Source: Phytophthora colocasiae
Lineage: Eukaryota > Oomycota > Peronosporomycetes > Peronosporales > Peronosporaceae
Reading direction: 5' to 3'
Length of the DNA: 64,000 nt
Assembly: GCA_018806915.1 (NCBI GenBank)
Contig: JAGKQI010000058.1
Span: forward strand, 248,001 to 312,000
This document shows, piece after piece, positions 26,993-57,397 of the stretch. Position 1 is the first letter of the stretch. Every line of letters begins with the position of its first letter. A program made the position numbers and the translations under genes. The notes below the pieces were generated by a model that did not search any database, was not told the origin of the DNA, and saw nothing but the letters and a program-made list of their open reading frames with translations.

Positions 26993-27070
26993 TACTCCGC
27001 TGAGCGACATCGGTCATCGACCGAGTGGATCGCTGAGTGTATCCGACAATGGGCCGGGTAAGGCTGAAAC

Positions 27071-29677: not shown

Positions 29678-29685
29678 ATCTGTGG

Positions 29686-33473: not shown

Positions 33474-33551
33474 TACTCCGCTGAGCGACATCGGTCATCG
33501 ACCGAGTGGATCGCTGAGTGTATCCGACAATGGGCCGGGTAAGGCTGAAAC

Positions 33552-36156: not shown

Positions 36157-36164
36157 ATCTGTGG

Positions 36165-37791: not shown

Positions 37792-39494
37792 TGTCGCGAA
37801 GTCGGTGCAACTTTTACCGCGGTGCAGGGGCGTACAGTGAACCTGGAAGTGTGACTACCGGTAGTGATACCAGAGTCGCACAGCAAGGTGGGCGTGTGTT
37901 ACCTTGTGCTGTCCTCGTAGGTTCGTTGTCTTGGTAATGAGACGCTCGCCGGGGTCGTGAGAGTGTTGATGAGAGTGAGGGTTCCTTGCGTGGGCCGTCG
38001 GATGTCCTTCTGGTCCTCACAGGAGCGCTTGAGAGTCGAACGTTTTCCGGTGAACACTTGTGTACACCAGAGATTTCTGAAAGCAAAGAGAAATTAATAC
38101 AATGGGAAGTCCAGTAATTAGACTTCCGAGATAACCGCAATATAGAGTTCCGATATACAAATATGTAGCTGCTCTTATTCTTTCCTGGCCCTTGAGCAGT
38201 GGGCTAGTTCTCCAGGTCAACTAGGGAAATGTTCACCAGACACCTGGTCTGTCTGGTATTCCCGTAACTTTCGCGCACCACCCTCTAATATATAGAGGGA
38301 AAATAAACCAATACACTATCAGTTATATAACAGTCTACCGAGCGTCTTGAGAGCGACTGTCTAGCTCCCAAAACCTGTCCAAACGTACAATATGAAATGG
38401 GCTACCGCTAGAGACAAGACAAACGACCCAACTAGTAAATGGAATAGGTGGGTCCTCTCAGGTCTCTACGTTACGCTGATCTCCACCTAAAGGGGCTTGA
38501 TAGGTGAGAGATCACACGACTCAAAGCTTTGTCGTGGCCTAATACTTACGGGAAGCAGCAGGCAGACGACCTCGTTATAACAAAGCAAATCGAACTCGTT
38601 ACAACAGGGAAAATTGAACTCTGGTTATCTATCTCGTATCTCTCTGTCTTCTGTCTTCCATATTCTCATACAGTATAAATACTGTATACACTTGGTCTCA
38701 GTATAACTCAGGAATCTTCACTTGGGCTCACTATGGTAGTCGATGCTGCAGATCTTGTCGAGTCGACACTTAATGATGTCATTACAGGGATGAGCAGGTT
38801 GCGTTTCACTTGATTGCGTGAGGTCGTGTTGGGTACACTTGGTTTCAGTATGGGGTGGACTTCACAGTGTCAGAGTCTTGGTATCCTGTTCGTCAGGGTC
38901 TGGAATCATGTGCGTCGGAGACATGTTCATCGGAACCATGTACTCCGGAATCATGTACATCAGAGTCGTAATACCAGAGTCGTGACACTTGGGTCTGTTC
39001 TTCGGAGTCTTGTACGTCGGAGTCTGTTCATCGGAAACTGGTAAATGTCTGGAATATTGCTTGTATAAGCCGGACACATCAGACTTGTTTACCAGAATCA
39101 TGTTCGTCAGACTCATGTACGTCAGACTTCATGTACGTCGGACTCATGTACGTCAGACTTCATGGTATGGTATCAGAGTTTCCATGCGTGATACCAGAAA
39201 TCCATGAGTGTTTTCAGGGTGCGGAGCACGTATGCTACAACGCACGAAGTCCAATCGGGATATGCGCGGGGTGCGCTACGTCCGGTGCGCGATACTTGGT
39301 ATCTTGTGGGTATAACTGTATTCCTTGAACCATCATCGTCACACAGGACGGCAACGGGATGAGGTCTTCTCAGAGATACATTCTTCTGAGAGACTTTCTG
39401 CCAACCTTTAGGCACTCATCGTCAGGAAAGTCCGGTGATCAGACTGAGTGTTATTGTCTCTCGGAGTTTGTGCACTTTTCCGAGGAACACTTCT
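37792..39494 (-). repeat. Detached remainder of the GypE 3' LTR
   Basis: Inverted LTR piece running from the CA end (37792, next to ATAA 37788-37791) to AGAAG (39490-39494 as CTTCT), immediately before A1. Together with 25073-25273 it makes a complete GypE LTR with one A1 insertion site. Confidence 0.85.
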
Positions 39495-39954
39495 TGTAAC
39501 GGGGTTACACGTACAAGTGGTTGTACCACTTGTAACTCTAACAGTTAGGATAACTGTTAGAGGTTGGAAATGGGCCTCAGACCTTGGTGTGCTGTACACA
39601 CCAAAGGATACATGGGCGAACCACATTATTGGATGGTTCGTGTGCATTTGTGCATATTATTGGTAGAAAGTAACGGATTTCTACCAATCACTGAGCAGAG
39701 TTTCTGCCAACCACACGTTGGCAGACCCTTTAGAAATAGATAACAAACAGTTTTAGGAGGTCCATAATTGGCTTATGCCAAATTCAATAACAGTTCTCAT
39801 TTTACGGTATTTTGCAGTTTAATTTAGTTATATTTGATTTAATTATACTTATTTAAATAAGTATACTTAAATTAAGTCTAATCTACTTGCACGCTTCCTC
39901 ATACACGTAAGCGCACGTGTACGCCATCTAATAGGTCTAGGTAGACCCATTACA
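39495..39954 (+). repeat. GypA LTR 3: 5' LTR of A1 (460 bp)
   Basis: TGTAACGG to CCATTACA. Built almost wholly of adjacent short inverted repeats, for example stems 39512-39520/39526-39534 and 39537-39547/39551-39561, and a 22-bp palindrome TATACTTATTTA plus its mirror near 39846-39867. The AT-rich palindrome area may include the core promoter. The primer-binding site follows. Confidence 0.92.
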
Positions 39955-39956
39955 CC

Positions 39957-39974
39957 TGGTAGCACTTTGTAGTC
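39957..39974 (+). other. A1 primer-binding site
   Basis: TGGTAGCACTTTGTAGTC begins two bases after the LTR. Its complement ends in CCA. The same site follows the A3 LTR at 55557. The tRNA is not identified. Confidence 0.6.
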
Positions 39975-40003
39975 CGTCCCACGACCGACTGCTGTTCGTT
40001 CGT

Positions 40004-40990
40004 ATGGAGTCATACGAACGCGGGGTAGAGAACTCCCCAATGGATGAGGGATCCACTGGGACCCCTCACATGTCCGTGACGCGCACGGACTGTGCCCACC
40101 TGTCAGATCCAGAGTGGGAAGCTCTCCAAAGACTTTCACAAGTCATTGGAGAGGCAGCGGTAGCGACGATGCTTCGTACGCTATCGCCGACAGAGCAACA
40201 CGGTGTTGCTCTGGGGTACATTGTTAAGGAGCAACGAGATGTTGCTGCCTCGGTGGCTTCCCCTAAGCCACGCGTGGAGTCGTTGAAACTCCACGTGAGT
40301 ACCTACACGGGGAAGGAGGACGAGACCCTCCTTCGTTGGCTTGTCGAACTTGACACAGCCGTTGCGGCTCGACGTATCGTCGATCCGATGTCGAAGGTCG
40401 CGTTCGCCATGTCATGTCTTGGCGGACGTGCGAGGAGTTGGGCCTATGGGCGCCGACTCTCGGATCCTACGTGCTTCGGCACGTACGAGGTGTTCAAAGA
40501 GGAGCTCAAGCTTGCGTTTGAGCCCCCGAAGAACGAGTTCAGATCGAGAGCGGAGTTTCTCGATCTGCAGCAGGGCAAGGATGATGTTCACACCTTTGCC
40601 CAGCGTGCTCGATACTTGGTATCGAACATAGTGGCCAACCCGATCGACGAGGCGACCAAGGTCGTCACGTTCATGAAGGGACTAAGAGATGGTCCCGTCA
40701 AAACATATCTCTTCCGAGAGTATCCGAATACTCTCGAAGAGGCGATCAGCCTTGCGATGCAAGAGGAGTTTAGCCGACATCAAGCTAAACTCCATGCGAA
40801 CGCGCCGAAGCCGGCGCGTCCTGTTGTGAAGACGGGAGGTCCGGAGCCTATGGACCTCTCGAGCGCTACGACTGCTGATCAACAGCAGCGTAGGAACAGC
40901 AAGGTTCGATGTTACAAGTGTAGTAACATCGGTCACTATGCACGCGAGTGCACAGCGGGCGGGCGTTCAAAAAACGCCAAGGACCAGTAG
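40004..40990 (+). CDS. A1 Gag (328 aa)
   Basis: ATG 40004 lies inside a 10-bp hairpin (39997-40020). The protein has a short acidic start, a retrotransposon Gag domain (about 100-230, including SKVAFAMSCLGGRARSWAYG and FKEELKLAFEPP), a basic Pro-rich linker, and one nucleocapsid knuckle CYKCSNIGHYAREC (about residue 303). Its length and layout are typical of chromovirus Gag. The final codons overlap a -1 frameshift signal leading into protease. The frame is intact, so this copy could make particles. Confidence 0.93.
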   Translation: MESYERGVENSPMDEGSTGTPHMSVTRTDCAHLSDPEWEALQRLSQVIGEAAVATMLRTLSPTEQHGVALGYIVKEQRDVAASVASPKPRVESLKLHVSTYTGKEDETLLRWLVELDTAVAARRIVDPMSKVAFAMSCLGGRARSWAYGRRLSDPTCFGTYEVFKEELKLAFEPPKNEFRSRAEFLDLQQGKDDVHTFAQRARYLVSNIVANPIDEATKVVTFMKGLRDGPVKTYLFREYPNTLEEAISLAMQEEFSRHQAKLHANAPKPARPVVKTGGPEPMDLSSATTADQQQRRNSKVRCYKCSNIGHYARECTAGGRSKNAKDQ

Positions 40991-42612
40991 GCGCGGGGCG
41001 TCCTACTGGTGATGCAGTCTCGCGTGTCGAGCTTGGACACGCGACGATGAGGACTGATGCCCCCAGCGAGAAAGTTTCTCGCTGTAAGCTGCAAGATGAC
41101 AAGCCAAACCTTGTCATCCTGAACGTGATGTCGAAGAGAGTTAACTCTCTTCGTGCCCTAGTGGACTCGGGCGCGTCGAACAACTTTGTTCGACAGGGAA
41201 GTCTTCGAAGACTTGACTTCGAAGAGGCTGACACGCCTCGCAGCGTGTTGGAGGTGCGGTTGGCAACGGGTGCCACCGTGAGGACTGAGAAGCGCGTAGT
41301 CCGTGTGCGCTTCTCTTACAAACGAAGGACGTTTGTAGAAGATCTTATCGTCTTGGATCTAGACGATAAGTTCGACTTGGTATTAGGCATGCCGTGGCTT
41401 GCACGGCATGACCCGGTGATCAACTGGGAGAAGCGTACACTCGTACGCTTCAACAACACATGCGCGACAGAGAGCGATGGCCCTGTCAGTGCTGCACATG
41501 CACCGGCCGGTGCATGTGGATCCCCAGTTGAGGCAGCAGCGGCCGCCGCTGCCTCCGATCGCCGCCGGCGACCATCAACGACTCCGGGAGTCGTTGTGAG
41601 AAAATGTGTGTCGACTCAGAAATCTGAGCCGAAGGGTCGCGGTCACATGAGTGATGGTCAGGTGAATCGCATTCACCTGAGAGAAGGTAAAATACCGGTA
41701 TTACCGGTATCCTTGGAGGTACTTCAAGCCCCCAAGGGTCGCGCCGACGACGTCGCGTCAACTCTGGGAGTTGACGAAGCAAATAATATTCGGGGAACCG
41801 AAAGACGTGCGTCAGCTCTGGGAGCTGACGCCACTGGCGCTTCGCTGCTAGTTCCGGGAACTAGCGATCGGTCATCAGCTCCGGGAGCTGATGAGACGTG
41901 TATAGGCGAACAGTCGCTGCTAGTTCCGGGAACTAGCGATCGTACATCCGCTCTGGGAACGGATGATATGTGTACAAGCGAACACTCACTAGCGCAGGAA
42001 GCTAGCGAGAGCACGTCGACTCCGGGAGTCGACGATGCGGTTGCTTCATCCGCTCCGGGAGCGGATGGAGGCGCAGCGGTTCAGGGAACCGACTGCGCGG
42101 CAGGAGGTGCTGGCGGTTGCAAACGCCCAGCACCCGAACAACCTGCGTGCTCACGTGCAGCAGCGCTGCACGCGATGAGCGGCACTCAAGCCGGGCTTGA
42201 TAGTGCGAGTCAGCGGAAGGAATCCGCTGACGATTGCGATAACGTCCCGTCCAAGGTGCGATGCCTTGGACGTGGAGCACCTGGAGCCGGGCTCCATGGT
42301 AGACCTTCGCGGCGCAAGCTCAGGGAGCTGCGCGAGTCTCAGTCCGGGTGTATCTGCAGTGCAGACACCGAGTGTCGAGACGTTGAACGTCTTGACACGT
42401 ACTGGTACTGCGTTACAGTACCAAAGGATGCGGTTGGAGAATCCGCCGACGTGTGCGTCGGCGTTGACCGCACTTCCAACGATGAGTTGGAAGCGCTTCG
42501 CGCGAGACTTGTACGATGGACGCATCGAACAAATTTGCATTCTCTCGGATATCGAGAGAGTGGATCGCGAAGCCGAAGAGCTGAAGCAGCTCGTCGTCGA
42601 TGGGATCACTGA
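40948..42612 (+). CDS. A1 protease and linker (-1 frame)
   Basis: Reached from gag by the frameshift at 40975; it likely has no start of its own. The retropepsin active site LVDSGASNNFV (about residue 70), SVLEVRLATGATV and DLVLGMPWLARH follow in order. A long low-complexity linker comes next, with repeated xPGxD/ALGAD-type units that coincide with perfect DNA hairpins. Near 42505-42515 homology moves to the next frame (ELEALRAR to DLYDGRIEQ), after which this frame is a shadow and stops at 42612. A2 shows the same frame relation, so the shift is shared. Confidence 0.85.
   Translation: MHSGRAFKKRQGPVGAGRPTGDAVSRVELGHATMRTDAPSEKVSRCKLQDDKPNLVILNVMSKRVNSLRALVDSGASNNFVRQGSLRRLDFEEADTPRSVLEVRLATGATVRTEKRVVRVRFSYKRRTFVEDLIVLDLDDKFDLVLGMPWLARHDPVINWEKRTLVRFNNTCATESDGPVSAAHAPAGACGSPVEAAAAAAASDRRRRPSTTPGVVVRKCVSTQKSEPKGRGHMSDGQVNRIHLREGKIPVLPVSLEVLQAPKGRADDVASTLGVDEANNIRGTERRASALGADATGASLLVPGTSDRSSAPGADETCIGEQSLLVPGTSDRTSALGTDDMCTSEHSLAQEASESTSTPGVDDAVASSAPGADGGAAVQGTDCAAGGAGGCKRPAPEQPACSRAAALHAMSGTQAGLDSASQRKESADDCDNVPSKVRCLGRGAPGAGLHGRPSRRKLRELRESQSGCICSADTECRDVERLDTYWYCVTVPKDAVGESADVCVGVDRTSNDELEALRARLVRWTHRTNLHSLGYRESGSRSRRAEAARRRWDH
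40969..41010 (+). promoter_or_regulatory. -1 programmed ribosomal frameshift signal, gag to pro
   Basis: A AAA AAC (40969-40975) is in the correct gag phase. A 7-nt spacer leads to a perfect 9-bp stem (40983-40991 with 41002-41010, 10-nt loop). Gag stop TAG is inside the stem (40988-40990). Slipping back one base enters the frame that encodes the protease. Site, spacing and stem match the established rules. Confidence 0.85.
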
Positions 42613-45265
42613 GGGTGATGACTCCCTCAGTGCGAAGACTAAGAAGCAGCGCTTCGAGGAGCAGAGCTGGGACTCGTTGAAGTCGAGTCCCTATTACGAG
42701 ATTCTGCGGGAGTACAAGGATGTACTCCCGGACGAGATTCCTTCGGAGCTTCCGAAGGATAAGGGCGTACAGCACGAGATTGATCTCGTGCCGGGCACGA
42801 AGTACTGTGTTACACGGCAGTGGCCACTGCCGCGTGAACAAGTGCAAGCGATCGACGACTTCTTTGAAAGTCGTCGTCTTGCAGGTCAAGTGCGGGAGTC
42901 AAAGTCCCCGCACAGTGCCCCAACGTTCTGTGTTAAGAAACCACAGGGCGGCTGGCGCATCGTTCATGCGTACAACAAGTTGAACGATGCGACGATACCG
43001 GCGCAGACGCCGATACCGCGAAAAGATGTTATCATCGATTCGATGGCCCTGAGCACTATCTTCAGTGCTCTAGATCTGCGTGATGGATTCTATCAGATCC
43101 TCATGCGTGAGAGGGACATCCCTCTCACTGCGGTAAGCACTCCAAGCGGTATGCTTTGGGAGTGGCTCGTCATGCCACAGGGGCTTAAGAACGCCCCTGC
43201 GACGTTCAATAGATGCGTGACACATCTATTGCGCTCGGTGCGCGACTTTGCACCGAGCTACTTCGACGACGTGTTCGTCCACAGCCGGGCTGTGAACGGG
43301 AAGACGGACATTGAGATGCACAAGGTGCATCTCCGGAAGCTGCTAGAGCTTATGAGGAAACATAAGCTCTATGCGAACCTGAAGAAGTGCATCTTCGGGG
43401 CGAGCGAGATACCCGTGCTGGGGTGTCTCGTGGGGAAAGACGGCGTGCGCCCTGACCCAGAGAAGGTCAGAGTGATCAATGAATGGCCCACGCCATCCAA
43501 TGTGAAGGAACTGAGGCAGTTCCTTGGGCTTGCCACGTACTTGTGCAAGTACGTGGAGAACTATCCGGGCAAGATTCGCCCGTTGTCACAGCTTCTTAAG
43601 AAAGAAACTGAGTGGATTCGGACGGAATGCGAGGAGGCATTCGGCGCAATCAAGCAGGGCTTGACTGAAGCGCCGATCTTGGCCGTGGCGGACCAAGATC
43701 GTCCATTCCACGTAGTGTGCGATGCATCCGACTTTGCAATCGGATGTGCATTGATGCAACACGATCACGAAGGGCGTGATCGTGTAGTCTATTATCAATC
43801 GCGTCAGCTGAAGCCACCTGAGCGTAATTATCCCGTACATGACAAGGAGCTCCTTGCCATGAAGTATGCACTCGCAAAGTTCCGAGTGTATCTACTTGGG
43901 AGTAGACCGTTCGTGGTCTATACAGACCACGCATCATTGCGTACGGCGATTAAGTCGCCGCACATCTCGCAACGTATGGCGAGATGGTTGTCCTTCTTCG
44001 CGGAGTACAACTTCCGGGTGGAGTACAAACCCGGAAGACTCAATGTAGTGGCCGACGCGTTATCGCGTCGACCTGACTATGCGGAGACGGTCGACGCCAA
44101 CGCTGTTGGCGTCGTGAGGACAAGTGTGCCGTCGTCAACGTTGATTGACGACGTGAAGAACGCGTTTGCAAGGGATGCAGACGTGAAGGGGCTGCTGGAG
44201 TTCCTCGCAGCACCTTCCGACGTGGCACGTCGGAAGCTAACCCCTCATCTTCGAGCTCGTGTACACCGCTATCGTGTACACGAAGGCCTACTGTTGTACA
44301 GTGCAGTAGACGACAATGCGGATCGCATTGTCGTTCCGAATGATCATGACCTCCGGTTGAGGATCATGTTCGAGTATCACGATGCCCCCACGGCAGGGCA
44401 TCCGGGTCGTGAGAAGACATACACTCTTCTCACGCGTGACTTCTACTGGCACCACCAGTACAAGTGGGTGCGCAAGTACGTACGTGCTTGCGAGGTTTGT
44501 CAACGCGTGAAGCCTGCGCAGTTCTCACAGGCTCCTCTTCAATCACTACCGACTCCGTCAGAGTGTTGGCAGTCCATGTCCATGGACTTTGTCTTCGGTC
44601 TTCCGCCTGACAGCAAGCGGAGGACGGGCATCGTTGTCTTTGTGGACAGATTCAGCAAGATGGTTCATCTTGCTGCCGTCCCGGCTACTGTTACAGCCGC
44701 GCAGACTGCGCGACTGTTTGTTGACATGGTGTTCAAACACCATGGCATGCCGCTCGACATTGTGTCGGACCGTGATCCACGCTTCACAGCGCGGTTCTGG
44801 CAAGAAGTGTTTACACTTCTTGGCTCACAATTGTCAATGTCGACTGCGGATCAGCCGCAGACGGACGGACAGACCGAACGTGTCAACCGTGTATTGGGTG
44901 ACACGTTGAAGAGCTACGCTCACTCGTTCCCGCATTGGAGCGAGTGCTTGCCGATGGCAGAGTTTGCCATCAACAACTCGGTGCATGCCTCGACAGGGCA
45001 TACACCGTTCTACGTGAACGCCATGAGGCATCCACGATTGCCGAGCATGCTCGGCGGGGTAGCTTCCTCCTTAAGTGGGGGAGGATCTACGGTTGCGTCC
45101 GAACAACCGCAGAATGCAACTGATAGCAGCACACTATCAGCTGCGGTGACGCGTGCGACGTCTCGTTCGAGCAGGAACGAGCGCGCTGATGTCTGTGCCG
45201 GGCACAGACGCGATGAGATGATAGCGAGCAGGCAGGGCCTGCTGCTGACAAGGGCGACAAGCTGA
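42197..45265 (+). CDS. A1 pol: RT, RNase H and integrase
   Basis: Coding sense begins near 42513. RT: HEIDLVPGTKYCVTRQWPL, SALDLRDGFYQ (catalytic Asp), MPQGLKNAPATFNR and YFDDVFVHS. RNase H: VVCDASDFAIGCALMQ, NYPVHDKELLAMKYAL and VYTDHASL, then DALSRRPDY. Integrase: zinc part HPGREKTYTL to CEVCQRVK, and triad MDFVF, SDRDPRF and DGQTERVN. All catalytic residues are present. The frame is lost near 45190 by two one-base insertions absent from A2, so the C-terminal part continues in another frame. Pol copies the RNA, degrades it, and inserts the DNA. Confidence 0.93.
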   Translation: MIVRVSGRNPLTIAITSRPRCDALDVEHLEPGSMVDLRGASSGSCASLSPGVSAVQTPSVETLNVLTRTGTALQYQRMRLENPPTCASALTALPTMSWKRFARDLYDGRIEQICILSDIERVDREAEELKQLVVDGITEGDDSLSAKTKKQRFEEQSWDSLKSSPYYEILREYKDVLPDEIPSELPKDKGVQHEIDLVPGTKYCVTRQWPLPREQVQAIDDFFESRRLAGQVRESKSPHSAPTFCVKKPQGGWRIVHAYNKLNDATIPAQTPIPRKDVIIDSMALSTIFSALDLRDGFYQILMRERDIPLTAVSTPSGMLWEWLVMPQGLKNAPATFNRCVTHLLRSVRDFAPSYFDDVFVHSRAVNGKTDIEMHKVHLRKLLELMRKHKLYANLKKCIFGASEIPVLGCLVGKDGVRPDPEKVRVINEWPTPSNVKELRQFLGLATYLCKYVENYPGKIRPLSQLLKKETEWIRTECEEAFGAIKQGLTEAPILAVADQDRPFHVVCDASDFAIGCALMQHDHEGRDRVVYYQSRQLKPPERNYPVHDKELLAMKYALAKFRVYLLGSRPFVVYTDHASLRTAIKSPHISQRMARWLSFFAEYNFRVEYKPGRLNVVADALSRRPDYAETVDANAVGVVRTSVPSSTLIDDVKNAFARDADVKGLLEFLAAPSDVARRKLTPHLRARVHRYRVHEGLLLYSAVDDNADRIVVPNDHDLRLRIMFEYHDAPTAGHPGREKTYTLLTRDFYWHHQYKWVRKYVRACEVCQRVKPAQFSQAPLQSLPTPSECWQSMSMDFVFGLPPDSKRRTGIVVFVDRFSKMVHLAAVPATVTAAQTARLFVDMVFKHHGMPLDIVSDRDPRFTARFWQEVFTLLGSQLSMSTADQPQTDGQTERVNRVLGDTLKSYAHSFPHWSECLPMAEFAINNSVHASTGHTPFYVNAMRHPRLPSMLGGVASSLSGGGSTVASEQPQNATDSSTLSAAVTRATSRSSRNERADVCAGHRRDEMIASRQGLLLTRATS

Positions 45266-45408
45266 AAGGATTCAGCTCGGGTGCGCTAGACTTTGTCCAG
45301 CGAAGACAAGCCGTCATACGGTTTGTCCAGGATGCTATCGCAGCTTCTGTCGATCGACAGAAGCTGAACGCTGATAATGTTGGTAGGGTCAACATAAATG
45401 AATTCAAA

Positions 45409-46113
45409 GTGGGTTCATTAGTTTGGTTAGCTACACAAAACCTACCTAGACATGCAGTGTCTGACTTTGGAGCAAGCAAGCTTGCTCCAAGATTCATTGG
45501 GCCGTTCAAAGTACTTGAACGGCATGGTAACGCGTACCGGCTGGACATACCGTCCAGCATGAGACTCCACCCGACCTTCTACGTCGGGCGGTTGAAGCCG
45601 TACGTGCAGCACGGACTACCTAGGGTTGGTAGTCCGACTGAGGAGTGCGAGAGGCCTGGAAGGCTTTCTCGAGACCGTCGACACGGTCGATCAACCGGTT
45701 CACTCTCGTCCCAAGACCGGACGAGAGGTTCGAGGCAGTCTGAGCTGCCTCGCAGACCTCAGCACGGAGGACACGAACCTCCTGCTTCAGAGCCGCTATC
45801 TCAGCGCTCTGTGTCTGCTCCAGCGCAGCAACTTGATCGTGCAGGGCACGATCGTCATGGTCATAGCGTTGACCATGCGGAGGGAGTGTTCCCACCCCCT
45901 CCGCCGCCGTTGCGCGCCGCGCGTGGAGCGATCCGCTGGATTGTGGAGCGGATCGTGGCTCATAAGAGAACGAACTCTCAAGGGGTTCGTTTTCGTATTC
46001 GTTGGAGAGGATTTCCTCCCAATCGAGATACATGGGAGCCGCGGAACGTCCTGATGGAGGACGTTCCGGAAATGGTGAGGGCGTACGAAGCCCACCATAA
46101 CTTGCAGGGTTAA
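45409..46113 (+). CDS. A1 pol C-terminus: integrase tail and chromodomain
   Basis: Continues pol after the frameshift (matching sequence begins near 45270). First an integrase C-terminal module with a GPFKVLERHGNAYRLDIP core and FYVGRLKPY. Then comes a low-complexity linker, and a chromodomain WIVERIVAHKRT with FRIRWRGFPPNRDTWEP (about 46 aa). Stop at 46113. The linker and chromodomain are also read on the other strand by the antisense ORF. The chromodomain presumably steers integration by binding modified histone H3, as in other chromoviruses. Confidence 0.88.
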   Translation: MGSLVWLATQNLPRHAVSDFGASKLAPRFIGPFKVLERHGNAYRLDIPSSMRLHPTFYVGRLKPYVQHGLPRVGSPTEECERPGRLSRDRRHGRSTGSLSSQDRTRGSRQSELPRRPQHGGHEPPASEPLSQRSVSAPAQQLDRAGHDRHGHSVDHAEGVFPPPPPPLRAARGAIRWIVERIVAHKRTNSQGVRFRIRWRGFPPNRDTWEPRNVLMEDVPEMVRAYEAHHNLQG

Positions 46114-47167
46114 ACCCTGCACGAGGAGTGCTGCGGTCAGCCACAGCACTCGGAGCTTCGCGTGGCACAATACGACCACGGAGTTCCTTGATGTGATCGG
46201 GTACACGGACGACCGTGTACCCCAGGAGATCACTTTCGGTAAGGCGTGTTGCCAAGGGTGGGCAACACGGACAGGGTGTGCCAAAGGGAACGGCACATGG
46301 GATCCCCGCTTCCATGGACTGATCATGGAGGCGTTCACACTTACCACGTGTAGTGTAAGTGTAGTAGCGATCGCGAGCCGCAGCAACGCGATCGCGATAT
46401 GCCTTCGGGTCTTTGTTGAAGTTATCAACAAAGGCGTTCCACGACTGACAAAGTGCCTGCCACTCGGGCACTTTACTCTTGCGCGAAGTCTTCTTCGCTG
46501 CATAGTATCGGAGCTCATGGAAGAGCCCGATATAGTAGTCGCGTCTTTGAGTCTCGGACTCAAAGACAACCTTAGCGGCGACGTCGTCGTCGTTGATACT
46601 GTTGCATGAGTACAACAGTATCGGGTTCGGTGGTGAACTAGCACCGAACCGGTCATGGATTTCTGCCTCAGTAGGCATCCATGGCGTGCGCACTGGCGGA
46701 TCAGTGCGCGGGGCAGTGAGCGCCCTCGACATGGAGGACGCTTCATCATCACTGCGCGGACGCTTCGAGCTTGAAGCGTCCGAGGCCTTATCACGAGGTC
46801 GTCGAGATACCACGGGTGGGTCTGACGTGTCTTCGGACGAAGGCACGGGAGCGGGAGCCTTGACATCAACCTCCCCCTCCTCGACATCCTCCTCGTAGTC
46901 GAGGATGTCTTCGTAGTCCTCTCCAAAGAGTTCTTTGAGAGGGACAGCAGGATTCTTAATCTCTGCTAGAGAAGAAGACTTCTTCTTCTTCTCGTGCTTC
47001 TCCTTATGGAGAGCATGGTACTTGGTGACAGAGAGTTTCTCTGTCGGACCGCTGGAAGCAGCAGTGCTAGTGGGCACTGCTGAGGTCGTTGTTCCTGCTG
47101 CAGAGGCAGCAGGAGAGGCTTGCGCGTCCGCAGTAGCGGACGGAGACGTGGGCGTTGGCGAGTCCAT
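45620..47167 (-). CDS. A1 antisense ORF, 515 aa, overlaps the sense chromodomain
   Basis: Full open frame on the opposite strand, from an ATG 102 bp inside the 3' LTR. Its last 494 bp overlap the sense pol linker and chromodomain. Parts: Ser/Thr/Ala-rich start; Lys-rich HKEKHEKKKK; acidic ELFGEDYEDILDYEED; a basic SKRPRSDDE; a folded-looking block (about 195-275, rich in Tyr and Arg); a Cys cluster near 291-302; and a C-terminal coiled coil (about 445-507, heptads EIAALKQEVRVLRAEV). No signal or membrane segment. The start context is good (G at -3 and +4). It is kept in A2 nearly unchanged. Function unknown; a structural or regulatory nuclear role is a guess. Confidence 0.8.
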   Translation of the reverse strand: MDSPTPTSPSATADAQASPAASAAGTTTSAVPTSTAASSGPTEKLSVTKYHALHKEKHEKKKKSSSLAEIKNPAVPLKELFGEDYEDILDYEEDVEEGEVDVKAPAPVPSSEDTSDPPVVSRRPRDKASDASSSKRPRSDDEASSMSRALTAPRTDPPVRTPWMPTEAEIHDRFGASSPPNPILLYSCNSINDDDVAAKVVFESETQRRDYYIGLFHELRYYAAKKTSRKSKVPEWQALCQSWNAFVDNFNKDPKAYRDRVAAARDRYYTYTTRGKCERLHDQSMEAGIPCAVPFGTPCPCCPPLATRLTESDLLGYTVVRVPDHIKELRGRIVPREAPSAVADRSTPRAGFNPASYGGLRTPSPFPERPPSGRSAAPMYLDWEEILSNEYENEPLESSFSYEPRSAPQSSGSLHARRATAAEGVGTLPPHGQRYDHDDRALHDQVAALEQTQSAEIAALKQEVRVLRAEVCEAAQTASNLSSGLGTRVNRLIDRVDGLEKAFQASRTPQSDYQP

Positions 47168-47253
47168 TGCGAAATGAACTCGGATTTCTCTCGGGAACTT
47201 GACGGTCTTGTCCAGTTCTGTTGATTGACGTATCGAGACCGATACGTCGAATC

Positions 47254-47268
47254 TTAACGGAGGGATGG
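47254..47268 (+). other. A1 polypurine tract
   Basis: Purine-rich AACGGAGGGATGG just before the 3' LTR; the likely plus-strand primer. Confidence 0.55.
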
Positions 47269-47549
47269 TGTAACGGGGTTACACGTACAAGTGGTTGTAC
47301 CACTTGTAACTCTAACAGTTAGGATAACTGTTAGAGGTTGGAAATGGGCCTCAGACCTTGGTGTGCTGTACACACCAAAGGATACATGGGCGAACCACAT
47401 TATTGGATGGTTCGTGTGCATTTGTGCATATTATTGGTAGAAAGTAACGGATTTCTACCAATCACTGAGCAGAGTTTCTGCCAACCACACGTTGGCAGAC
47501 CCTTTAGAAATAGATAACAAACAGTTTTAGGAGGTCCATAATTGGCTTA
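47269..47549 (+). repeat. A1 3' LTR, first 281 bp
   Basis: Matches 39495-39775 and stops at TTGGCTTA. The missing 179 bp are at 25274-25453 in the other orientation. The cut falls in a small hairpin (TTGGC-TTAT-GCCAA). Confidence 0.88.
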
Positions 47550-47550
47550 A
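47549..47550. other. Right breakpoint of the 22.1-kb inversion
   Basis: A1 LTR sequence changes to A2 internal sequence read backward. Partner of 25453/25454. Confidence 0.8.
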
Positions 47551-47570
47551 AGGAGCTTCGTGGTCGTATT

Positions 47571-48117
47571 GTGCCACGCGAAGCTCCGAGTGTTGTGGCT
47601 GACCGCAGCACTCCTCGTGCAGGGTTTAACCCTGCAAGTTATGGTGGGCTTCGTACGCCCTCACCATTTCCGGAACGTCCTCCATCAGGACGTTCCGCGG
47701 CTCCCATGTATCTCGATGGGGAGGAAATCCTCTCCAACGAATACGAAAACGAACCCCTTGAGAGTTCGTTCTCTTATGAGCCACGATCCGCTCCACAATC
47801 CAGCGGATCGCTCCACGCGCGTCGCGCAACGGCGGCGGAGGGGGTGGGAACACTTCTCCGCATGGTCAACGCTATGACCATGAAGATCGTGCCCCGCACG
47901 ATCGAGTTGCTGCGCTGGAGCAGACACAGAGCGCTGAGATAGCTGCTCTGAAGCAGGAGGTTCGTGTCCTCCGTGCTGAGGTCTGCGAGGCAGCTCAGAC
48001 TGCCTCGAACCTCTCGTCCGGTCTTGGGACGAGAGTGAATCGGTTGATCGACCGTGTCGACGGTCTCGAGAAGGCCTTCCAGGCCTCTCGCACTCCTCAG
48101 TCGGACTACCAACCCTA
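47571..48117 (+). pseudogene. A2 antisense ORF, C-terminal part (frameshifted)
   Basis: Same protein end as the A1 antisense ORF: PREAPS, MYLDGEEILSNEYENEPLES, then after a frameshift near 47855 the coiled coil EIAALKQEVRVLRAEV and final SRTPQSDYQP. The N-terminal part was carried to 25454-26431 by the inversion. Confidence 0.75.
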
Positions 48118-48447
48118 GGTAGTCCGTGCTGCACGTACGGTTTCAACCGCCCGACGTAGAAGGTCGGGTGGAGTCTCATGCTGGACGGTATGTCCAGCCG
48201 GTACGCAGTTACCATGCCGTTCAAGTACTTTGAACGGCCCATCGAATCTTGGAGCAAGCTTGCTTGCTCCAAAGTCAGACACTGCATGTTTAGGCAGGTT
48301 TTGTGTAGCTAACAAAACTAATGAACCCACTTTGAATTCATTTATGTTGACCCTACCAACATTATCAGCGTTCAGCTTCTGTCGATCGACAGAAGCTGCG
48401 ATAGCATCCTGGACAAAACCGTATGACGGCTTGTCTTCGCTGGACAA
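47626..48447 (-). pseudogene. A2 pol C-terminus: integrase tail and chromodomain
   Basis: Minus-strand counterpart of 45277-46113. The integrase tail (SKLAPRF, FYVGRLKPY) and chromodomain (WIVERIVAHKRT, RGFPPHRDTWEP; 47626-47853) are present, but small indels split them over three frames. The one-base insertions that break A1 near 45190 are absent here, while others have arisen. Confidence 0.8.
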
Positions 48448-49352
48448 AGTCTAGCGCACCCGAGCTGAATCCTTTCAGCTTGTCGCCCTTGTCAGCAGCA
48501 GGCCCTGCCTGCTCGCTATCATCTCTCGCGTCTGTGCCCGGCACAGACATCGCGCGCTCGTTCCTGCTCGAACGAGACGTCGCACGCGTCACCGCAGCTG
48601 ATAGTGTGCTGCTATCAGTTGCATTCTGCGGTTGTTCGGACGCAACCGTAGATCCTCCCCCACTTAAGGAGGAAGCTACCCCGCCGAGCATGCTCGGCAA
48701 TCGTGGATGCCTCATGGCGTTCACGTAGAACGGTGTATGCCCTGTCGAGGCATGCACCGAGTTGTTGATGGCAAACTCTGCCATCGGCAAGCACTCGCTC
48801 CAATGCGGGAACGAGTGAGCGTAGCTCTTCAACGTGTCACCCAATACACGGTTGACACGTTCGGTCTGTCCGTCCGTCTGCGGCTGATCCGCAGTCGACA
48901 TTGACAATTGTGAACCAAGAAGTGTAAACACTTCTTGCCAGAACCGCGCTGTGAAGCGTGGATCACGGTCCGACACAATGTCGAGCGGCATGCCATGGTG
49001 TTTGAACACCATGTCAACAAACAGTCGCGCAGTCTGCGAGGCTGTAACAGAAGTTGACGGCAGCAAGATGAACCATCTTGCTGAATCGGTCCACAAAGAC
49101 GACGATGCCCGTCCTCCGCTTGCTGTCAGGCGGAAGACCGAAGACAAAGTCCATGGACATGGACTGCCAACACTCCGACGGAGTCGGTAGTGATTGAAGA
49201 GGAGCCTGCGAGAACTGCGCAGGCTTCACGCGTTGACAAACCTCGCAAGCACGTACGTACTTGCGCACCCACTTGTACTGGTGGTGCCAGTAGAAGTCAC
49301 GCGTGAGAAGAGTGTATGTCTTCACGACCCGGATGCCCTGCCGTGGGGGCAT
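48365..49352 (-). pseudogene. A2 pol: integrase core (frameshifted)
   Basis: Contains the integrase zinc part (WVRKYVRACEVCQRVK), MDFVFGLPP, SDRDPRF and DGQTERVN in two overlapping frames, then a tail up to GALDFVQRRQAVIRF. A two-base deletion near 49325 and an indel near 49060 break the link with RT. Confidence 0.82.
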
Positions 49353-51540
49353 CGTGATACTCGAACATGATCCTCAACCGGAGGTCATGATCATTCGGAA
49401 CGACAATGCGATCCGCATTGTCGTCTACCGCACTGTACAACAGTAGGCCTTCGTGTACACGATAGCGGTGTACACGAGCTCGAAGATGAGGGGTTAGCTT
49501 CCGACGTGCCACGTCGGAAGGTGCTGCGAGGAACTCCAGCAGCCCCTTCACGTCTGCATCCCTTGCAAACGCGTTCTTCACGTCGTCAATCAACGTTGAC
49601 GACGGCACACTTGTCCTCACGACGCCAACAGCGTTGGCGTCGACCGTCTCCGCATAGTCAGGTCGACGCGATAACGCGTCGGCCACTACATTGAGTCTTC
49701 CGGGTTTGTACTCCACCCGGAAGTTGTACTCCGCGAAGAAGGACAACCATCTCGCCATACGTTGCGAGATGTGCGGCGACTTAATCGCCGTACGCAATGA
49801 TGCGTGGTCTGTATAGACCACGAACGGTCTACTCCCAAGTAGATACACTCGGAACTTTGCGAGTGCATACTTCATGGCAAGGAGCTCCTTGTCATGTACG
49901 GGGTAATTGCGCTCAGCTGGCTTCAGCTGACGCGATTGATAGTAGACTACACGATCACGCCCTTCGTGATCGTGCTGCATCAATGCACATCCGATTGCAA
50001 AGTCGGATGCATCACACACTACGTGGAATGGACGATCTTGGTCCGCCACGGCCAAGATCGGCGCTTCAGTCAAGCCCTGCTTGACTGCACTGAATGCATC
50101 GTCGCACTCGGTCGTCCGAATCCACTCAGTTTCTTTCTTAAGAAGCTGTGACAACGGGCGAATCTTGCCCGGATAGTTCTCCACGTACTTGCACAAGTAC
50201 GTGGCAAGCCCAAGGAACTGCCTCAGTTCCTTCACATTGGATGGCGTGGGCCATTCATTAATCACTCTGACCTTCTCTGGGTCAGGGCGCACGCCGTCTT
50301 TCCCCACGAGACACCCCAGCACGGGTATCTCGCTCGCCCCGAAGATACACTTCTTCAGGTTCGCATAGAGCTTATGTTTCCTCATAAGCTCTAGCAGCTT
50401 CCGGAGATGCACCTTGTGCATCTCAATGTCCGTCTTCCCGTTCACAGCCCGGCTGTGGACGAACACGTCGTCGAAGTAGCTCGGTGCGAAGTCGCGCACC
50501 GAGCGCAATAGATGTGTCACGCATCTATTGAACGTCGCAGGGGCGTTCTTAAGCCCCTGTGGCATGACGAGCCATTCCCAAAGCATACCGCTTGGAGTGC
50601 TTACCGCAGTGAGAGGGATGTCCCTCTCACGCATGAGGATCTGATAGAATCCATCACGCAGATCTAGAGCACTGAAGATAGTGCTCAGGGCCATCGAATC
50701 GATGATAACATCTTTTCGCGGTATCGGCGTCTGCGCCGGTATCGTCGCATCGTTCAACTTGTTGTACGCATGAACGATGCGCCAGCCGCCCTGTGGTTTC
50801 TTAACACAGAACGTTGGGGCACTGTGCGGGGACTTTGACTCCCGCACTTGACCTGCAAGACGACGACTTTCAAAGAAGTCGTCGATCGCTTGCACTTGTT
50901 CACGCGGCAGTGGCCACTGCCGTGTAACACAGTACTTCGTGCCCGGCACGAGATCAATCTCGTGCTGTACGCCCTTATCCTTCGGAAGCTCCGAAGGAAT
51001 CTCGTCCGGGAGTACATCCTTGTACTCCCGCAGAATCTCGTAATAGGGACTCGACTTCAACGAGTCCCAACTCTGCTCCTCGAAGCGCTGCTTCTTAGTC
51101 TTCGCACTGAGGGAGTCATCACCCTCAGTGATCCCATCGACGACGAGCTGCTTCAGCTCTTCGGCTTCGCGATCCACTCTCTCGATATCCGAGAGAATGC
51201 AAATTTGTTCGATGCGTCCATCGTACAAGTCCCGCGCGAAGCGCTTCCAACTCATCGTTGGAAGTGCGGTCAACGCCGACGCACACGTCGGCGGATTCTC
51301 CAACCGCATCCTCTGGTACTGTAACGCAGTACCAGTACGTGTCAAGACGTTCAATGTCTCGACACTCGGTGTCTGCACTGCAGATACACCCGGACTGAGA
51401 CTCGCGCAGCTCCCTGAGCTTGCGCCGCGAAGGTCTACCATGGAGCCCGGCTCCAGGTGCTCCACGTCCAAGGCATCGCACCTTGGACGGGACGTTATCG
51501 CAATCGTCAGCGGATTCCTTCCGCTGACTCGCACTATCAA
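49297..51540 (-). CDS. A2 pol: RT and RNase H (747 aa open frame)
   Basis: Nearly identical to A1 RT and RNase H, with SALDLRDGFYQ, YFDDVFVHS, CDASDFAIGCALMQ and DALSRRPDY intact. It stops at 49297 after a two-base deletion in the integrase zinc region. One stretch (TECDDAFSAVKQGL) differs from A1 and Adel (CEEAFGAIKQGL). It is a working-looking RT in a broken element that could act in trans. Confidence 0.9.
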   Translation of the reverse strand: MIVRVSGRNPLTIAITSRPRCDALDVEHLEPGSMVDLRGASSGSCASLSPGVSAVQTPSVETLNVLTRTGTALQYQRMRLENPPTCASALTALPTMSWKRFARDLYDGRIEQICILSDIERVDREAEELKQLVVDGITEGDDSLSAKTKKQRFEEQSWDSLKSSPYYEILREYKDVLPDEIPSELPKDKGVQHEIDLVPGTKYCVTRQWPLPREQVQAIDDFFESRRLAGQVRESKSPHSAPTFCVKKPQGGWRIVHAYNKLNDATIPAQTPIPRKDVIIDSMALSTIFSALDLRDGFYQILMRERDIPLTAVSTPSGMLWEWLVMPQGLKNAPATFNRCVTHLLRSVRDFAPSYFDDVFVHSRAVNGKTDIEMHKVHLRKLLELMRKHKLYANLKKCIFGASEIPVLGCLVGKDGVRPDPEKVRVINEWPTPSNVKELRQFLGLATYLCKYVENYPGKIRPLSQLLKKETEWIRTTECDDAFSAVKQGLTEAPILAVADQDRPFHVVCDASDFAIGCALMQHDHEGRDRVVYYQSRQLKPAERNYPVHDKELLAMKYALAKFRVYLLGSRPFVVYTDHASLRTAIKSPHISQRMARWLSFFAEYNFRVEYKPGRLNVVADALSRRPDYAETVDANAVGVVRTSVPSSTLIDDVKNAFARDADVKGLLEFLAAPSDVARRKLTPHLRARVHRYRVHEGLLLYSAVDDNADRIVVPNDHDLRLRIMFEYHDAPTAGHPGREDIHSSHA

Positions 51541-52633
51541 GCCCGGCTTGAGTGCCGCTCATCGCGTGCAGCGCTGCTGCACGTGAGCACGCAGGTTGTT
51601 CGGGTGCTGGGCGTTTGCAACCGCCAGCACCTCCTGCCGCGCAGTCGGTTCCCTGAACCGCTGCGCCTCCATCCGCTCCCGGAGCGGATGGAAGCAACCG
51701 CATCGTCGACGCCCGGAGTCGACGTGCTCACGCGAGCTTCCTGCGCTAGTGACTGTTCGCTTGTACACATATCCTCCGTTCCCAGAGCGGATGTACGATC
51801 GCGAGGTCCCGGACCTAGCAGCGACTGTTCGCCTATATCGTCTCATCAGCTCCCGGAGCTGATGACCGATCGCCAGTTCCCGGAACTAGCAGCGAAGCGC
51901 CAGTGGCGTCAGCTCCCAGAGCTGACGCACGTCTTTCGGTTCCCCGAATATTATTTGCTTCGTCAACTCCCAGAGTTGACGCGACGTCGTCGGCGCGACC
52001 CTTGGGGCTTGAAGTACCTCCAAGCGATACCGGTAATACCGGTATTTTACCTTCTCTCAGGTGAATGCGATTCACCTGACCATCACTCATGTGACAAACA
52101 TCATTCAGATGTTTACGCGTCAGGTGATTCACATTCACCTGACCATCACTCATGTGACCGCGACCCTTCGGCTCAAATTTCTGAGTCGACACATTTTCTC
52201 CCAACGACTCTGAGTCGCTGGCGGTCGCCGGCGGCGATCGGAGGCAGCGGCGGCCGCTGCTGCCTCAACTGGGGATCCATGCACCGGCCGGTGCATGTGC
52301 AGCACTGACAGGGCCATCGCTCTCTGTCGCGCATGTGTTGTTGAAGCGTACGAGTGTACGCTTCTCCCAGTTGATCACCGGGTCATGCCGTGCAAGCCAC
52401 GGCATGCCTAATACCAAGTCGAACTTATCGTCTAGATCCAAGACGATAAGATCTTCTACAAACGTCCTTCGTTTGTAAGAGAAGCGCACACGGACTACGC
52501 GCTTCTCAGTCCTCACGGTGGCACCCGTTGCCAACCGCACCTCCAACACGCTGCGAGGCGTGTCGGCCTCTTCGAAGTCAAGTCTTCGAAGACTTCCCTG
52601 TCGAACAAAGTTGTTCGACGCGCCCGAGTCCAC
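51125..52633 (-). pseudogene. A2 protease and linker
   Basis: The protease core MDSGASNNFV to DLVLGMPWLARH is open at 52633-52265. The linker continues in other frames (52204-51833, 51703-51125) because of several indels. Linker length differs from A1, and some hairpin-coded repeat units are lost or changed. Confidence 0.8.
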
Positions 52634-52779
52634 TAGGCACGAAGAGAGTTAACTCTCTTCGACATCACGTTCAGGATGACAAGGTTTGGCTTGTCATCTT
52701 GCAGCTTACAGCGAGAAACTTTCTCGCTGGGGCATCAGTCCTCATCGTCGCGTGTCCAAGCTCGACACGCGAGACTGCA

Positions 52780-53772
52780 TCACCAGTAGGACGCCCCGCG
52801 CCTACTGGTCCTTGGCGTTTTTGAACGCCCGCCCGCTGTGCACTCGCGTGCATAGTGACCGATGTTACTACACTTGTAACATCGAACCTTGCTGTTCCTA
52901 CGCTGCTGTTGATCAGCAGTCGTAGCGCTCGAGAGGTCCATAGGCTCCGGACCTCCCGTCTTCACAACAGGACGCGCCGGCTTCGGCGCGTTCGCATGGA
53001 GTTTAGCTTGATGTCGGCTAAACTCCTCTTGCATCGCAAGGCTGATCGCCTCTTCGAGAGTATTCGGATACTCTCGGAAGAGATATGTTTTGACGGGACC
53101 ATCTCTTAGTCCCTTCATGAACGTGACGACCTTGGTCGCCTCGTCGATCGGGTTGGCCACTATGTTCGATACCAAGTATCGAGCACGCTGGGCAAAGGTG
53201 TGAACATCATGATCGAGAAACTCCGCTCTCGATCTGAACTCGTTCTTCGGGGGCTCAAACGCAAGCTTGAGCTCCTCTTTGAACACCTCGTACGTGCCGA
53301 AGCACGTAGGATCCGAGAGTCGGCGCCCATAGGCCCAACTCCTCGCACGTCCGCCAAGACATGACATGGCGAACGCGACCTTCGACATCGGATCGACGAT
53401 ACGTCGAGCCGCAACGGCTGTGTCAAGTTCGACAAGCCAACGAAGGAGGGTCTCGTCCTCCTTCCCCGTGTAGGTACTCACGTGGAGTTTCAACGACTCC
53501 ACGCGTGGCTTAGGGAAGCCACCGAGGCAGCAACATCTCGTTGCTCTCATCACAATGTACCCCAGAGCAACACCGTGTTGCCCTGTCGGCGATAGCGTAT
53601 GAAACATCGTCGCTACCGCTGCCTCTCCAATGACTTGTGAAAGTCTTTGGAGAGCTTCCCACTCTGGATCTGACAGGTGGGCACAGTCCGTGCGCGTCAC
53701 GGACATGTGAGGGGTCCCAGTGGATCCCTCATCCATTGGGGAGTTCTCTACCCCGCGTTCGTATGACTCCAT
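52780..53772 (-). CDS. A2 Gag (330 aa open frame, damaged end)
   Basis: Same domains as A1 Gag, with a pair of compensating frameshifts (VMRATRCCCLGG) and a short in-frame deletion before DVHTFAQR. The knuckle CYKCSNIGHYAREC is intact. The slippery run has five A instead of six, so the gag frame runs past the normal stop in the wrong phase and the frameshift into protease is lost. Confidence 0.85.
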   Translation of the reverse strand: MESYERGVENSPMDEGSTGTPHMSVTRTDCAHLSDPEWEALQRLSQVIGEAAVATMFHTLSPTGQHGVALGYIVMRATRCCCLGGFPKPRVESLKLHVSTYTGKEDETLLRWLVELDTAVAARRIVDPMSKVAFAMSCLGGRARSWAYGRRLSDPTCFGTYEVFKEELKLAFEPPKNEFRSRAEFLDHDVHTFAQRARYLVSNIVANPIDEATKVVTFMKGLRDGPVKTYLFREYPNTLEEAISLAMQEEFSRHQAKLHANAPKPARPVVKTGGPEPMDLSSATTADQQQRRNSKVRCYKCSNIGHYARECTAGGRSKTPRTSRRGASYW

Positions 53773-53821
53773 ACGAACGAACAGCAGTCGGTCGTGGGAC
53801 GGACTACAAAGTGCTACCAGG

Positions 53822-54281
53822 TGTAATGGGTCTACCTAGACCTATTAGATGGCGTACACGTGCGCTTACGTGTATGAGGAAGCGTGCAATTAGAATAGAC
53901 TTAATTTAAGTATACTTATTTAAATAAGTATAATTAAATCAAATATAACTAAATTAAACTGCAAAATACCGTAAAATGAGAACTGTTATTGAATTTGGCA
54001 TAAGCCAATTATGGACCTCCTAAAACTGTTTGTTATCTATTTCTAAAGGGTCTGCCAACGTGTGGTTGGCAGAAACTCTGCTCAGTGATTGGTAGAAATC
54101 CGTTACTTTCTACCAATAATATGCACAAATGCACACGAACCATCCAATAATGTGGTTCGCCCATGTAACCTTTGGTGTGTACAGCACACCAAGGTTTGAG
54201 GCCCATTTCCAACCTCTAACAGTTATCCTAACTGTTAGAGTTACAAGTGGTACAACCACTTGTACGTGTAACCCCGTTACA
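53822..54281 (-). repeat. GypA LTR 4: 5' LTR of A2 (460 bp)
   Basis: Minus-oriented LTR from TGTAATGG (53822) to CCGTTACA (54281). It has a few substitutions against LTR 3, in an area where the A1 3' LTR piece 25274-25453 agrees with LTR 4. Confidence 0.9.
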
Positions 54282-55098: not shown

Positions 55099-55554
55099 TG
55101 TAACGGAGTTACACGTACAAGTGGCTACACCACTTGTAACTCTAACAGTTGCGATAAATGTTAGAGGTTGGAACTGGGCCTCAGACCTTGGTGTGCTGTA
55201 CATCCCAATGGCTACGTGGGCGAACCACATCATCGGGTGGTTCGTGTGCACTTGTGCATGTTATTGGTAGAAAGCATGGATTTCTACCCCCTAGAATCCC
55301 AGAGCAGAGATTCTGCCAACCACACGTTGGTAGATCCTTTAGAAATAGATCAAAAACCGTTTTAGGAGGTTCCATAATTTGCCAAATTCAATAACAATTA
55401 TCATTTTACGGTATTTGCAGTTTAATTCGTTTATATTTGATTTAATTATACGTATTTAAAATACGTATAATTAAATTAAGTCTATTCTAATAGCATGCTC
55501 ATACACGTAAGCGCACGTGTACGCCACCTAATAGGTCTGAGTAGACCTATTACA
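55099..55554 (+). repeat. GypA LTR 6: 5' LTR of A3 (456 bp)
   Basis: TGTAACGG to TATTACA; more diverged than LTRs 1-5, with small indels. Followed by the same primer-binding site (55557) as A1. Confidence 0.88.
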
Positions 55555-55603
55555 CCTGGTAGCACTTTGTAGTCCGTCCCACGACCGACTGCTGTTCGTT
55601 CGT

Positions 55604-56660: not shown

Positions 56661-57397
56661 GGACTGCTGCCCCCAGCAAGAAAGTTTCTCGCTGTAAGCT
56701 GCAAGATGCCAAGCCTGTCATCCTAACCGTGATGTCGAAGAGAGTTAACTCTCTCCTAGTGGACTCTGGCGCGTCGAACAACTTTTTTTGACAGGGAAGT
56801 CTTCGAAGACTTGACTTCGAAGAGGCCGACACGCCTCGCAGCGTGTTGGAGCTGCGGTTGACAAAAGGTGCCACCGCGGGGACTGAAAAGCGCGTGTGCG
56901 CTTCTCTTACAAACGAAGGACGTTTGTAGAAGATCTTGGATCTAGACGATAAGTTCGTACCGTGGCTTGCACGGATCAACTGGGAGAAGCGTACGCTCGT
57001 ACGCTTCAACAACACAAGTGCGCAGAGAGCGATGGCCCTGTCAGTGCTGCATATGCACCGGACGGTGCATGTGGATCGCCATTTGAGGCAGAAGCAGCCA
57101 CCTCTGCCTTCCGATCGCCGCCGGCGACCATCAACGACTCCGGGAGTCGTTGAGAGAACATGTGTGTCGACTCAGAAATCTGAGCCGAAGGGATGCGGCC
57201 ATGTGAATGATGGTCAAGTGAACGTAAATCACCTGACGCATAAACATCTGAATGATGTTTGTCACATGAGTGATGGTCAGGTGAATGCGATTCACCTGAG
57301 AGAAGGTAACAGACCGGCATTACCGGTATCGTTGGAGTACTTCAAGCCCCCACAGGTCGCGCCGACGACGTCGCTTCAACTCTGGAAGTTGCCGAAA
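56661..57397 (+). pseudogene. A3 protease and linker, decayed
   Basis: Contains LVDSGASNNF with a stop soon after, many small deletions, and linker pieces (KSEPKG, HMSDGQVN, HLREG). Homology to A1 ends near 57397; RT and beyond are absent. Confidence 0.78.

Follow-up and report, generated by a model that had tools for sequence, protein, structure and literature searches.

Architecture of GypA copy A1

The 64-kb window analysed here (64,000 nucleotides, positions 248,001 to 312,000 of contig JAGKQI010000058.1 of Phytophthora colocasiae, assembly GCA_018806915.1) contains GypA, a long terminal repeat (LTR) retrotransposon that is densely set with short perfect hairpins through coding sequence and LTRs alike. 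GypA belongs to a known family, the Ty3/gypsy LTR retrotransposons, and within it to the chromovirus branch: Pfam matches identify a gag with a CCHC knuckle, protease, reverse transcriptase (RT), RNase H and then integrase, followed by SH3 and chromodomain, and direct LTRs are present. According to the list of open reading frames (ORFs), the coding parts are spread over several frames that overlap or adjoin. Copy A1 begins with a 5′ LTR (39495-39954, window coordinates throughout), a 460-bp repeat of the form TGTAA...TTACA that is 99.8% identical to copies at 26533 and 33014, and a leader (39955-40003). Behind these lie, all on the plus strand, a gag ORF with capsid-like domains and the CCHC knuckle (40004-40990), a protease ORF (RVP_2, 1.1e-8) that includes a hairpin-rich linker (40948-42612), a pol ORF encoding RT, RNase H and integrase (42197-45265) and, in a frame of its own behind the pol ORF, an ORF with a Tf2-1-like SH3 domain and a chromodomain (PF00385, 3.8e-12; 45409-46113). 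The 3′ LTR (47269-47549, plus strand) is cut at 281 bp; over this length the two LTRs are identical, which makes the insertion a young one. On the minus strand, an antisense ORF of 515 amino acids with no Pfam match (45620-47167) spans the 3′ part of the element, and convergent transcription there could yield double-stranded RNA.

Excess and form of the hairpins

We counted as hairpins all non-overlapping perfect inverted repeats with a stem of at least 8 bp and a loop of at most 12 nucleotides. A1 carries 105 of them in 39495-47268 (110 with the 3′ LTR piece added), separated by a median gap of 32.5 and a mean gap of 50.8 bases; one (39997-40020) overlaps the gag start codon. All 13 hairpins listed in the initial annotation were recovered in place, several being 1 bp longer than given. 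Protein-preserving codon permutation (300 permutations for each of seven coding pieces) yielded a mean of 3.25 and a maximum of 10 hairpins against 77 observed, so that the observed density lies far above this null; gag alone has 8 against 0.29, and the tested pol pieces have 36 (pol N 12, RT 11, integrase 13). Three control ORFs gave 1, 1 and 0 hairpins against 0.42, 0.67 and 0.38 after the same permutation. Compared with dinucleotide shuffles, we observed 29 against 0.35 in the protease and linker (40991-42612), 30 against 0.62 in RT-integrase, 8 against 0.20 in gag, 9 against 0.17 in the SH3-chromodomain ORF, 5 against 0.12 in the first 259 bases of the LTR, 17 against 0.17 in the antisense-ORF region (46114-47167) and 1 against 0.03 in the leader. 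The excess is thus approximately 40- to 100-fold in six of the seven parts tested, all but the leader, and the earlier claim that the pattern continues through RT, integrase, the antisense ORF and the LTR holds in each.

Outside GypA, hairpin density in the window is overall at background. GypE has 3 hairpins against 0.92 shuffled, in agreement with the earlier statement that it is not tiled, and a MULE has 0 against 0.35. Of the hairpins in the whole window, 266 fall in GypA-related sequence (24,647 bases) and 18 in the remaining 39,353 bases; beyond A1, hairpins are also dense at 25-30 kb, 33-36 kb and 47.5-57.5 kb, where GypA copies or fragments lie. An origin of the hairpins in chance, composition or protein sequence is already refuted, since dinucleotide shuffles and codon permutations yield only about 1-4% of the observed count, and we give it practically no weight. 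The element had been described as tiled end to end, a wording that is right about the density and slightly strong about the coverage: hairpin spans with stems of at least 8 cover 32% of A1, and gag, RT and the end of the integrase core contain hairpin-free gaps of 205-230 bases. When stems of at least 6 were admitted, 49% of A1 was spanned, compared with 5.5% of shuffled sequence.

The hairpins are uniform in form. At loops of 0-10, stems of 8, 9, 10, 11, 12 and 13 bp number 26, 43, 22, 13, 2 and 1, against 1.1, 0.45, 0.05, 0, 0 and 0 in shuffled sequence, and loops of 13-40 give 6 hairpins against 3.9. The excess begins at stems of 6-7 bp, peaks at 9 and stops at 13. Loops range from 0 to about 12, with an excess that is 95-fold for loops of 4-7, 8-fold for loops of 14-16 and absent for loops of 17-60. 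Hairpin spans are 16-30 bases, 86 of the 105 measuring 26 or less. Stem length drops as G+C content rises (rho -0.28, p 0.003), A/T-rich stems being longer, and stacking energy is more even across stems than with permuted lengths. Loops of 0-2 bring one or two extra pairs, and once a loop of at least 3 is allowed for, the formable stem keeps a constant length (the correlation moves from -0.30 to -0.03), which argues for folding as a single strand and not for a palindromic protein site. An apparent trade-off between stem and loop that had suggested a fixed span disappeared once a loop of 3 was required.

GypA copies and related elements

Further GypA-related segments lie in the window. A2 (47550-54281, minus strand) is an inverted copy approximately 98% identical to A1 and is hairpin-rich too; the cut 3′ LTR of A1 (281 bp) directly abuts it at the junction 47549/47550. 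A3 (55099-57404, plus strand) is a more diverged fragment whose pieces match A1 at 87-95% identity. Pieces of the GypA LTR and pol also occur in another context at 26533-29680 (plus strand), with a near-identical unit at 33014-36159. The larger segments 26533-30020 and 33014-36981 are 99.8% alike, each with a GypA LTR at its start and GypA pol pieces that have approximately 88-95% identity to A1. As 32501-33473 matches 38982-39954 too, a longer unit seems to be tandemly repeated.

In a search of the 92.5-Mb genome (105 contigs), a 401-base piece of GypA matched with 98-100% identity in all 40 scored matches, of 313 candidates. We fetched 40 Ty3-type loci for a comparison of hairpin density. 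The density is 8.7-14.3 hairpins per kb in four GypA copies and 3.4-5.0 in six relatives at approximately 61% DNA identity (L004 and L020-L024). Six loci of a sister family (L025-L029 and L031) have 1.15-1.60, and L007, which carries a GypA LTR piece, has 1.68. The remaining 23 loci have 0.2-0.63 hairpins per kb, among them a further member of the clade, L030, at 0.38. Hairpin density is therefore graded within one Ty3/gypsy clade. The sister loci L020-L023, with fewer hairpins, show the same range of loops as GypA, and stems of 7-10 bp are in excess in them relative to five outgroup loci. Setting aside the GypA copy L019, 25 of the 31 hairpins in the RT-integrase part of A1 coincide with no hairpin in any sister family and six with at least one. 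As hairpins mostly occupy different sites in different families, each family has gained its own; together with the graded density, this means that what is inherited is the tendency and mostly not the individual hairpins.

One GypA copy, L057, joins non-GypA sequence with 0.7 hairpins per kb past its base 2459, and the tiling ends at that junction; beyond 42400 this copy has no match to GypA. The tails of L067, L068 and L070 were considered as unrelated hairpin-rich 3′ modules and dropped: L067 and L068 are rearranged pieces of GypA and the sister family, and the L070 tail contains at least an inverted LTR piece. One IMG/VR scan returned no relative, and Rfam gave no match at gathering scores.

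Variation between copies: selection and template switching

Variants were compared in an alignment of 23 rows over 40004-43900, the 5′ half of the element, from which L050 and L057 had been dropped. Variants seen in a single copy fell on 101 of 1004 stem sites and 304 of 2595 sites outside (p 0.18). In contrast, variants present in at least two copies fell on only 16 of the 1004 stem sites, against 138 of the 2595 outside (p 1e-7) and 19 of 233 loop sites, so that shared variants are approximately 3-6 times rarer in stems than outside and loops have no such depletion. At third codon positions, shared variants again were scarce in stems (6/334 against 89/863, p 7e-8), with single-copy variants at 32/334 against 116/863 (p 0.08), and protein constraint is consequently not the cause. 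The depletion persisted when stems were defined by at least half of the copies (20/1096 against 137/2562). Among L022, L023, L024 and L004, stems were less diverged than their surroundings in 12 of 12 non-independent comparisons (p<0.01 in five), with 0-6 compensatory pairs per comparison. We conclude that hairpin pairing in GypA is likely to be under purifying selection.

Several other indications were set aside. Mutational shielding of stems was rejected because single-copy variants are not significantly depleted there. A comparison of A1 with the unit at 27639 (5/176 stem sites changed, 100/821 outside) was not used, the unit being a mosaic with divergent first ~225 bases that confound it. 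An amino-acid cost of stems (identity to relatives 0.542, against 0.625 outside; p 0.036) was gone when stems of at least 7 were taken.

A mutational drive could in principle produce the same scarcity of shared stem variants. In such a process RT turns the nascent strand back on itself and uses one arm as the template for the other, perfecting near-palindromes without any need for a benefit to the element. Perfection of the stems beyond what energy requires, short loops, strand symmetry, a graded and clade-limited density and a placement that is mostly non-conserved all fit such a drive, and template switching is known to create short hairpins and to homogenise them (PMC8794818, PMC8604942). 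It should, however, leave corrected pairs behind. Sixteen shared stem variants were found where approximately 53 were expected, yet none of the 502 stem pairs of A1 had been forward-corrected in two or more copies, although the drive predicts about half of the ~37 missing variants as new pairs changed in both arms. Ten apparent compensatory pairs had been noted; nine were lost on removing L057, leaving one pair in a single copy. Nor did the arms differ in divergence from relatives (signed difference 0.040, null standard deviation 0.035). For thirty hairpins, two or more copies had the hairpin and two or more lacked it, and nine of these had a shared hairpin-less form (a tenth, cut by the alignment edge, was excluded); at eight of the nine that form differs by one stem base. 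The loop was inverted in only one of 80 loop-variant pairs, which lies within a GAA/TTC repeat.

One site would favour the drive, 41945-41965 in the linker, with paired changes in four copies. It belongs to a part of the linker (41576-42067, plus strand) in which a series of hairpins has related centres (CTCCGGGAG and similar) and arms that differ in step. The changes exactly match another linker repeat and were therefore read as repeat exchange: at this site the four copies have another unit's sequence, as if repeats exchange. Joint compensatory pairs, multi-base conversion of an arm and loop inversion, the signature of template switching, were thus not what we found in GypA. The initial annotation had suggested that RT template switching turns near-palindromes into perfect ones and that aligned copies might reveal paired changes. 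Because none of the 502 pairs shows a shared forward correction, template switching is disfavoured as the maintaining force, and drive as an account of the hairpins has long odds against it. It may create some of them, without explaining their upkeep; the scarcity of shared stem variants is probably due to selection.

Which strand folds

Energy-matched nulls were computed for sense RNA, minus-strand RNA and each DNA strand singly, with null sequences for both strands drawn from plus-strand composition. For sense RNA, 156 stems divided into 66 perfect, 31 G.U-only and 59 mismatched, where 26, 64 and 66 were expected (chi-square 80); the minus strand taken as RNA also fitted poorly (70, 46 and 34 against 26, 62 and 62). 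For the DNA plus strand, perfect, G.T-bearing and mismatched stems numbered 104, 24 and 79 against 87, 23 and 97 expected (p 0.03), and for the DNA minus strand 99, 47 and 64 against 88, 23 and 98, a worse fit than that of the plus strand. The energy-matched nulls reject sense-RNA folding alone and fit single-stranded DNA better.

These counts bear directly on the possibility that selection for packaging, control of translation or stability keeps the sense RNA genome of GypA folded. Folding z-scores average -4.3 in 51 GypA segments (82% below -3) and -0.2 in 36 GypE segments, as a folded sense RNA would have it. Shared stem variants, moreover, comprised 11 G.U and 2 A.C, compared with 38 and 41 among single-copy variants (p 0.017), and 10 and 1 in the 5′ part (p 0.003); the lean was not significant with looser stems (11:3 at stems of at least 7, p 0.08; 12:5 at stems of at least 6, p 0.12). 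Fixed near-hairpins lean in the opposite direction, with 30 A.C and 14 G.U (p 0.02; 15 and 8 with stricter arms, p 0.21), which favours the minus strand. Sense-RNA energy predicts many more G.U-only stems and far fewer perfect ones than are seen, the minus strand folds equally well, and hairpins stand mostly at non-homologous sites between families. The z-scores of the two strands do differ (-4.3 for plus, -5.3 for minus, p 0.0004), a gap that probably reflects, for the most part, the base composition of the shuffled sequences, absolute energies being nearly equal. Selection for a locally folded RNA genome, one of the two explanations originally offered, was therefore upheld as regards selection on pairing, through the comparison of shared and single-copy variants, and not as regards sense-RNA energy, G.U stems being too rare. 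A sense RNA genome selected for its fold is accordingly improbable.

Selection might instead act on single-stranded cDNA, with minus-strand DNA, laid bare after RNase H, folding into many small local hairpins that would guard against nucleases or deaminases, or stop annealing between copies during reverse transcription. DNA energies account for the proportions of perfect, G.T-bearing and mismatched stems more closely than RNA energies do, G.T-bearing stems are more numerous on the minus strand (47 against 24, p 0.009), the minimum loop of 3 agrees with folding of single-stranded cDNA, and LTR and coding parts are equally rich in hairpins, as cDNA folding expects. On the other hand, stems receive single-copy variants about as often as other sites do and so have no shield from mutation; shared variants lean to plus-strand G.U; and cDNA folding offers no reason for the sharp limit on loops. 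Folding of single-stranded cDNA, though unlikely, is the chief rival to the silencing shield considered below.

A possible shield from small-RNA silencing

The reading that we prefer, at a probability of roughly 0.38, is that selection maintains the GypA hairpins, which are predicted to fold both strands and so to shield the element from small-RNA silencing. If selection is granted, escape from silencing comes close to an even chance of being the benefit. As proposed, both strands of GypA nucleic acid would fold back on themselves, leaving small-RNA guides and antisense RNA unable to pair with GypA. Stems of approximately 9 bp would suffice to out-compete a 21-26-nt guide and would still be too short for Dicer to cut. 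Both GypA strands would have to fold, and this requirement would explain why G.U pairs are not freely used. PMC3804510 reports that in Phytophthora 25/26-nt small RNAs derive from transposable elements and 21-nt small RNAs from inverted repeats. Folding of both strands, stems of approximately 9 bp with a limit near 13, and spans of 16-30 bases would suit escape from the 25/26-nt RNAs without forming the inverted repeats that yield 21-nt RNAs. More tentatively still, this clade of Phytophthora LTR retrotransposons may have evolved a sequence-independent armour, selected in coding and non-coding sequence across the whole element, of micro-hairpins of approximately 23 bases that fold on both strands. 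The RNA of the element, the antisense RNA and the 25/26-nt guides derived from the two would then each close up, and silencing could not take hold.

A number of observations weigh against a shield of this kind. Stems of at least 8 leave much of the element uncovered, spanning only 32% of A1. The contrast between single-copy and shared variants is weaker when the linker is excluded (p 0.04), and in the 3′ region, with 12 rows, the depletion of shared variants is not significant (6/508 stem sites, 29/1189 outside, p 0.13). Single-stranded DNA energies by themselves match the make-up of the stems well, and the 11:2 lean of shared stem variants to G.U suggests that the sense strand alone folds. 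A span near 23 could equally match other machines, such as the ribosome or reverse transcriptase. Finally, the score classes of the hairpin-poor sister family L025-L031 fill much of the 150 integrase zinc-binding matches listed, so its copies are seemingly abundant and success without hairpins is possible.

If pairing selection is as we read it, approximately a quarter of sites in this retroelement (1004/3832), third codon positions included, lie in stems subject to it, and synonymous sites in such elements should not be used as neutral clocks. The uniform form of the hairpins would be measurable and datable. Sister families of high, middle and low density in one genome would be a natural experiment on the spread of structure through a mobile element, bearing on whether hairpins alter silencing, copy number or reverse transcription.

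Comparison with known systems

As far as a literature search of partial coverage shows, the hairpin tiling of GypA is undescribed, the search having found no description of a hairpin-tiled retroelement. With other Phytophthora Ty3/gypsy chromoviruses GypA shares the order of gag, protease, RT, RNase H, integrase, SH3 and chromodomain, and its RT shares approximately 90% identity with proteins assigned to Phytophthora cinnamomi, P. ramorum and P. sojae, which marks the host as a Phytophthora-like oomycete; GypA differs in its dense perfect hairpins, the named relatives having been compared by their proteins only. Genome-scale ordered RNA structure (GORS) of RNA viruses is an excess of folding across the whole genome, coding and non-coding. 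GypA resembles it in that folding energy is far below that of shuffled sequence along the element (mean z -4.3). Its stems, in contrast, are short, local and Watson-Crick-perfect, sense-RNA energy does not explain them, and G.U pairs are not used as freely as RNA folding energy would have it (chi-square 80). The RNA genome of yeast Ty3, likewise a Ty3-type element, is structured, with a well-folded core and short palindromes at the 5′ end that serve dimerisation (PMC11381356); the available part of that source describes the core and the 5′ palindromic sites and no tiling by perfect hairpins. Finally, the hairpins that arise by template switching at quasipalindromes are short perfect inverted repeats with small loops (PMC8794818, PMC8604942), as in GypA; those hairpins are mutation events, whereas the pairing in GypA persists with no forward correction among 502 stem pairs.

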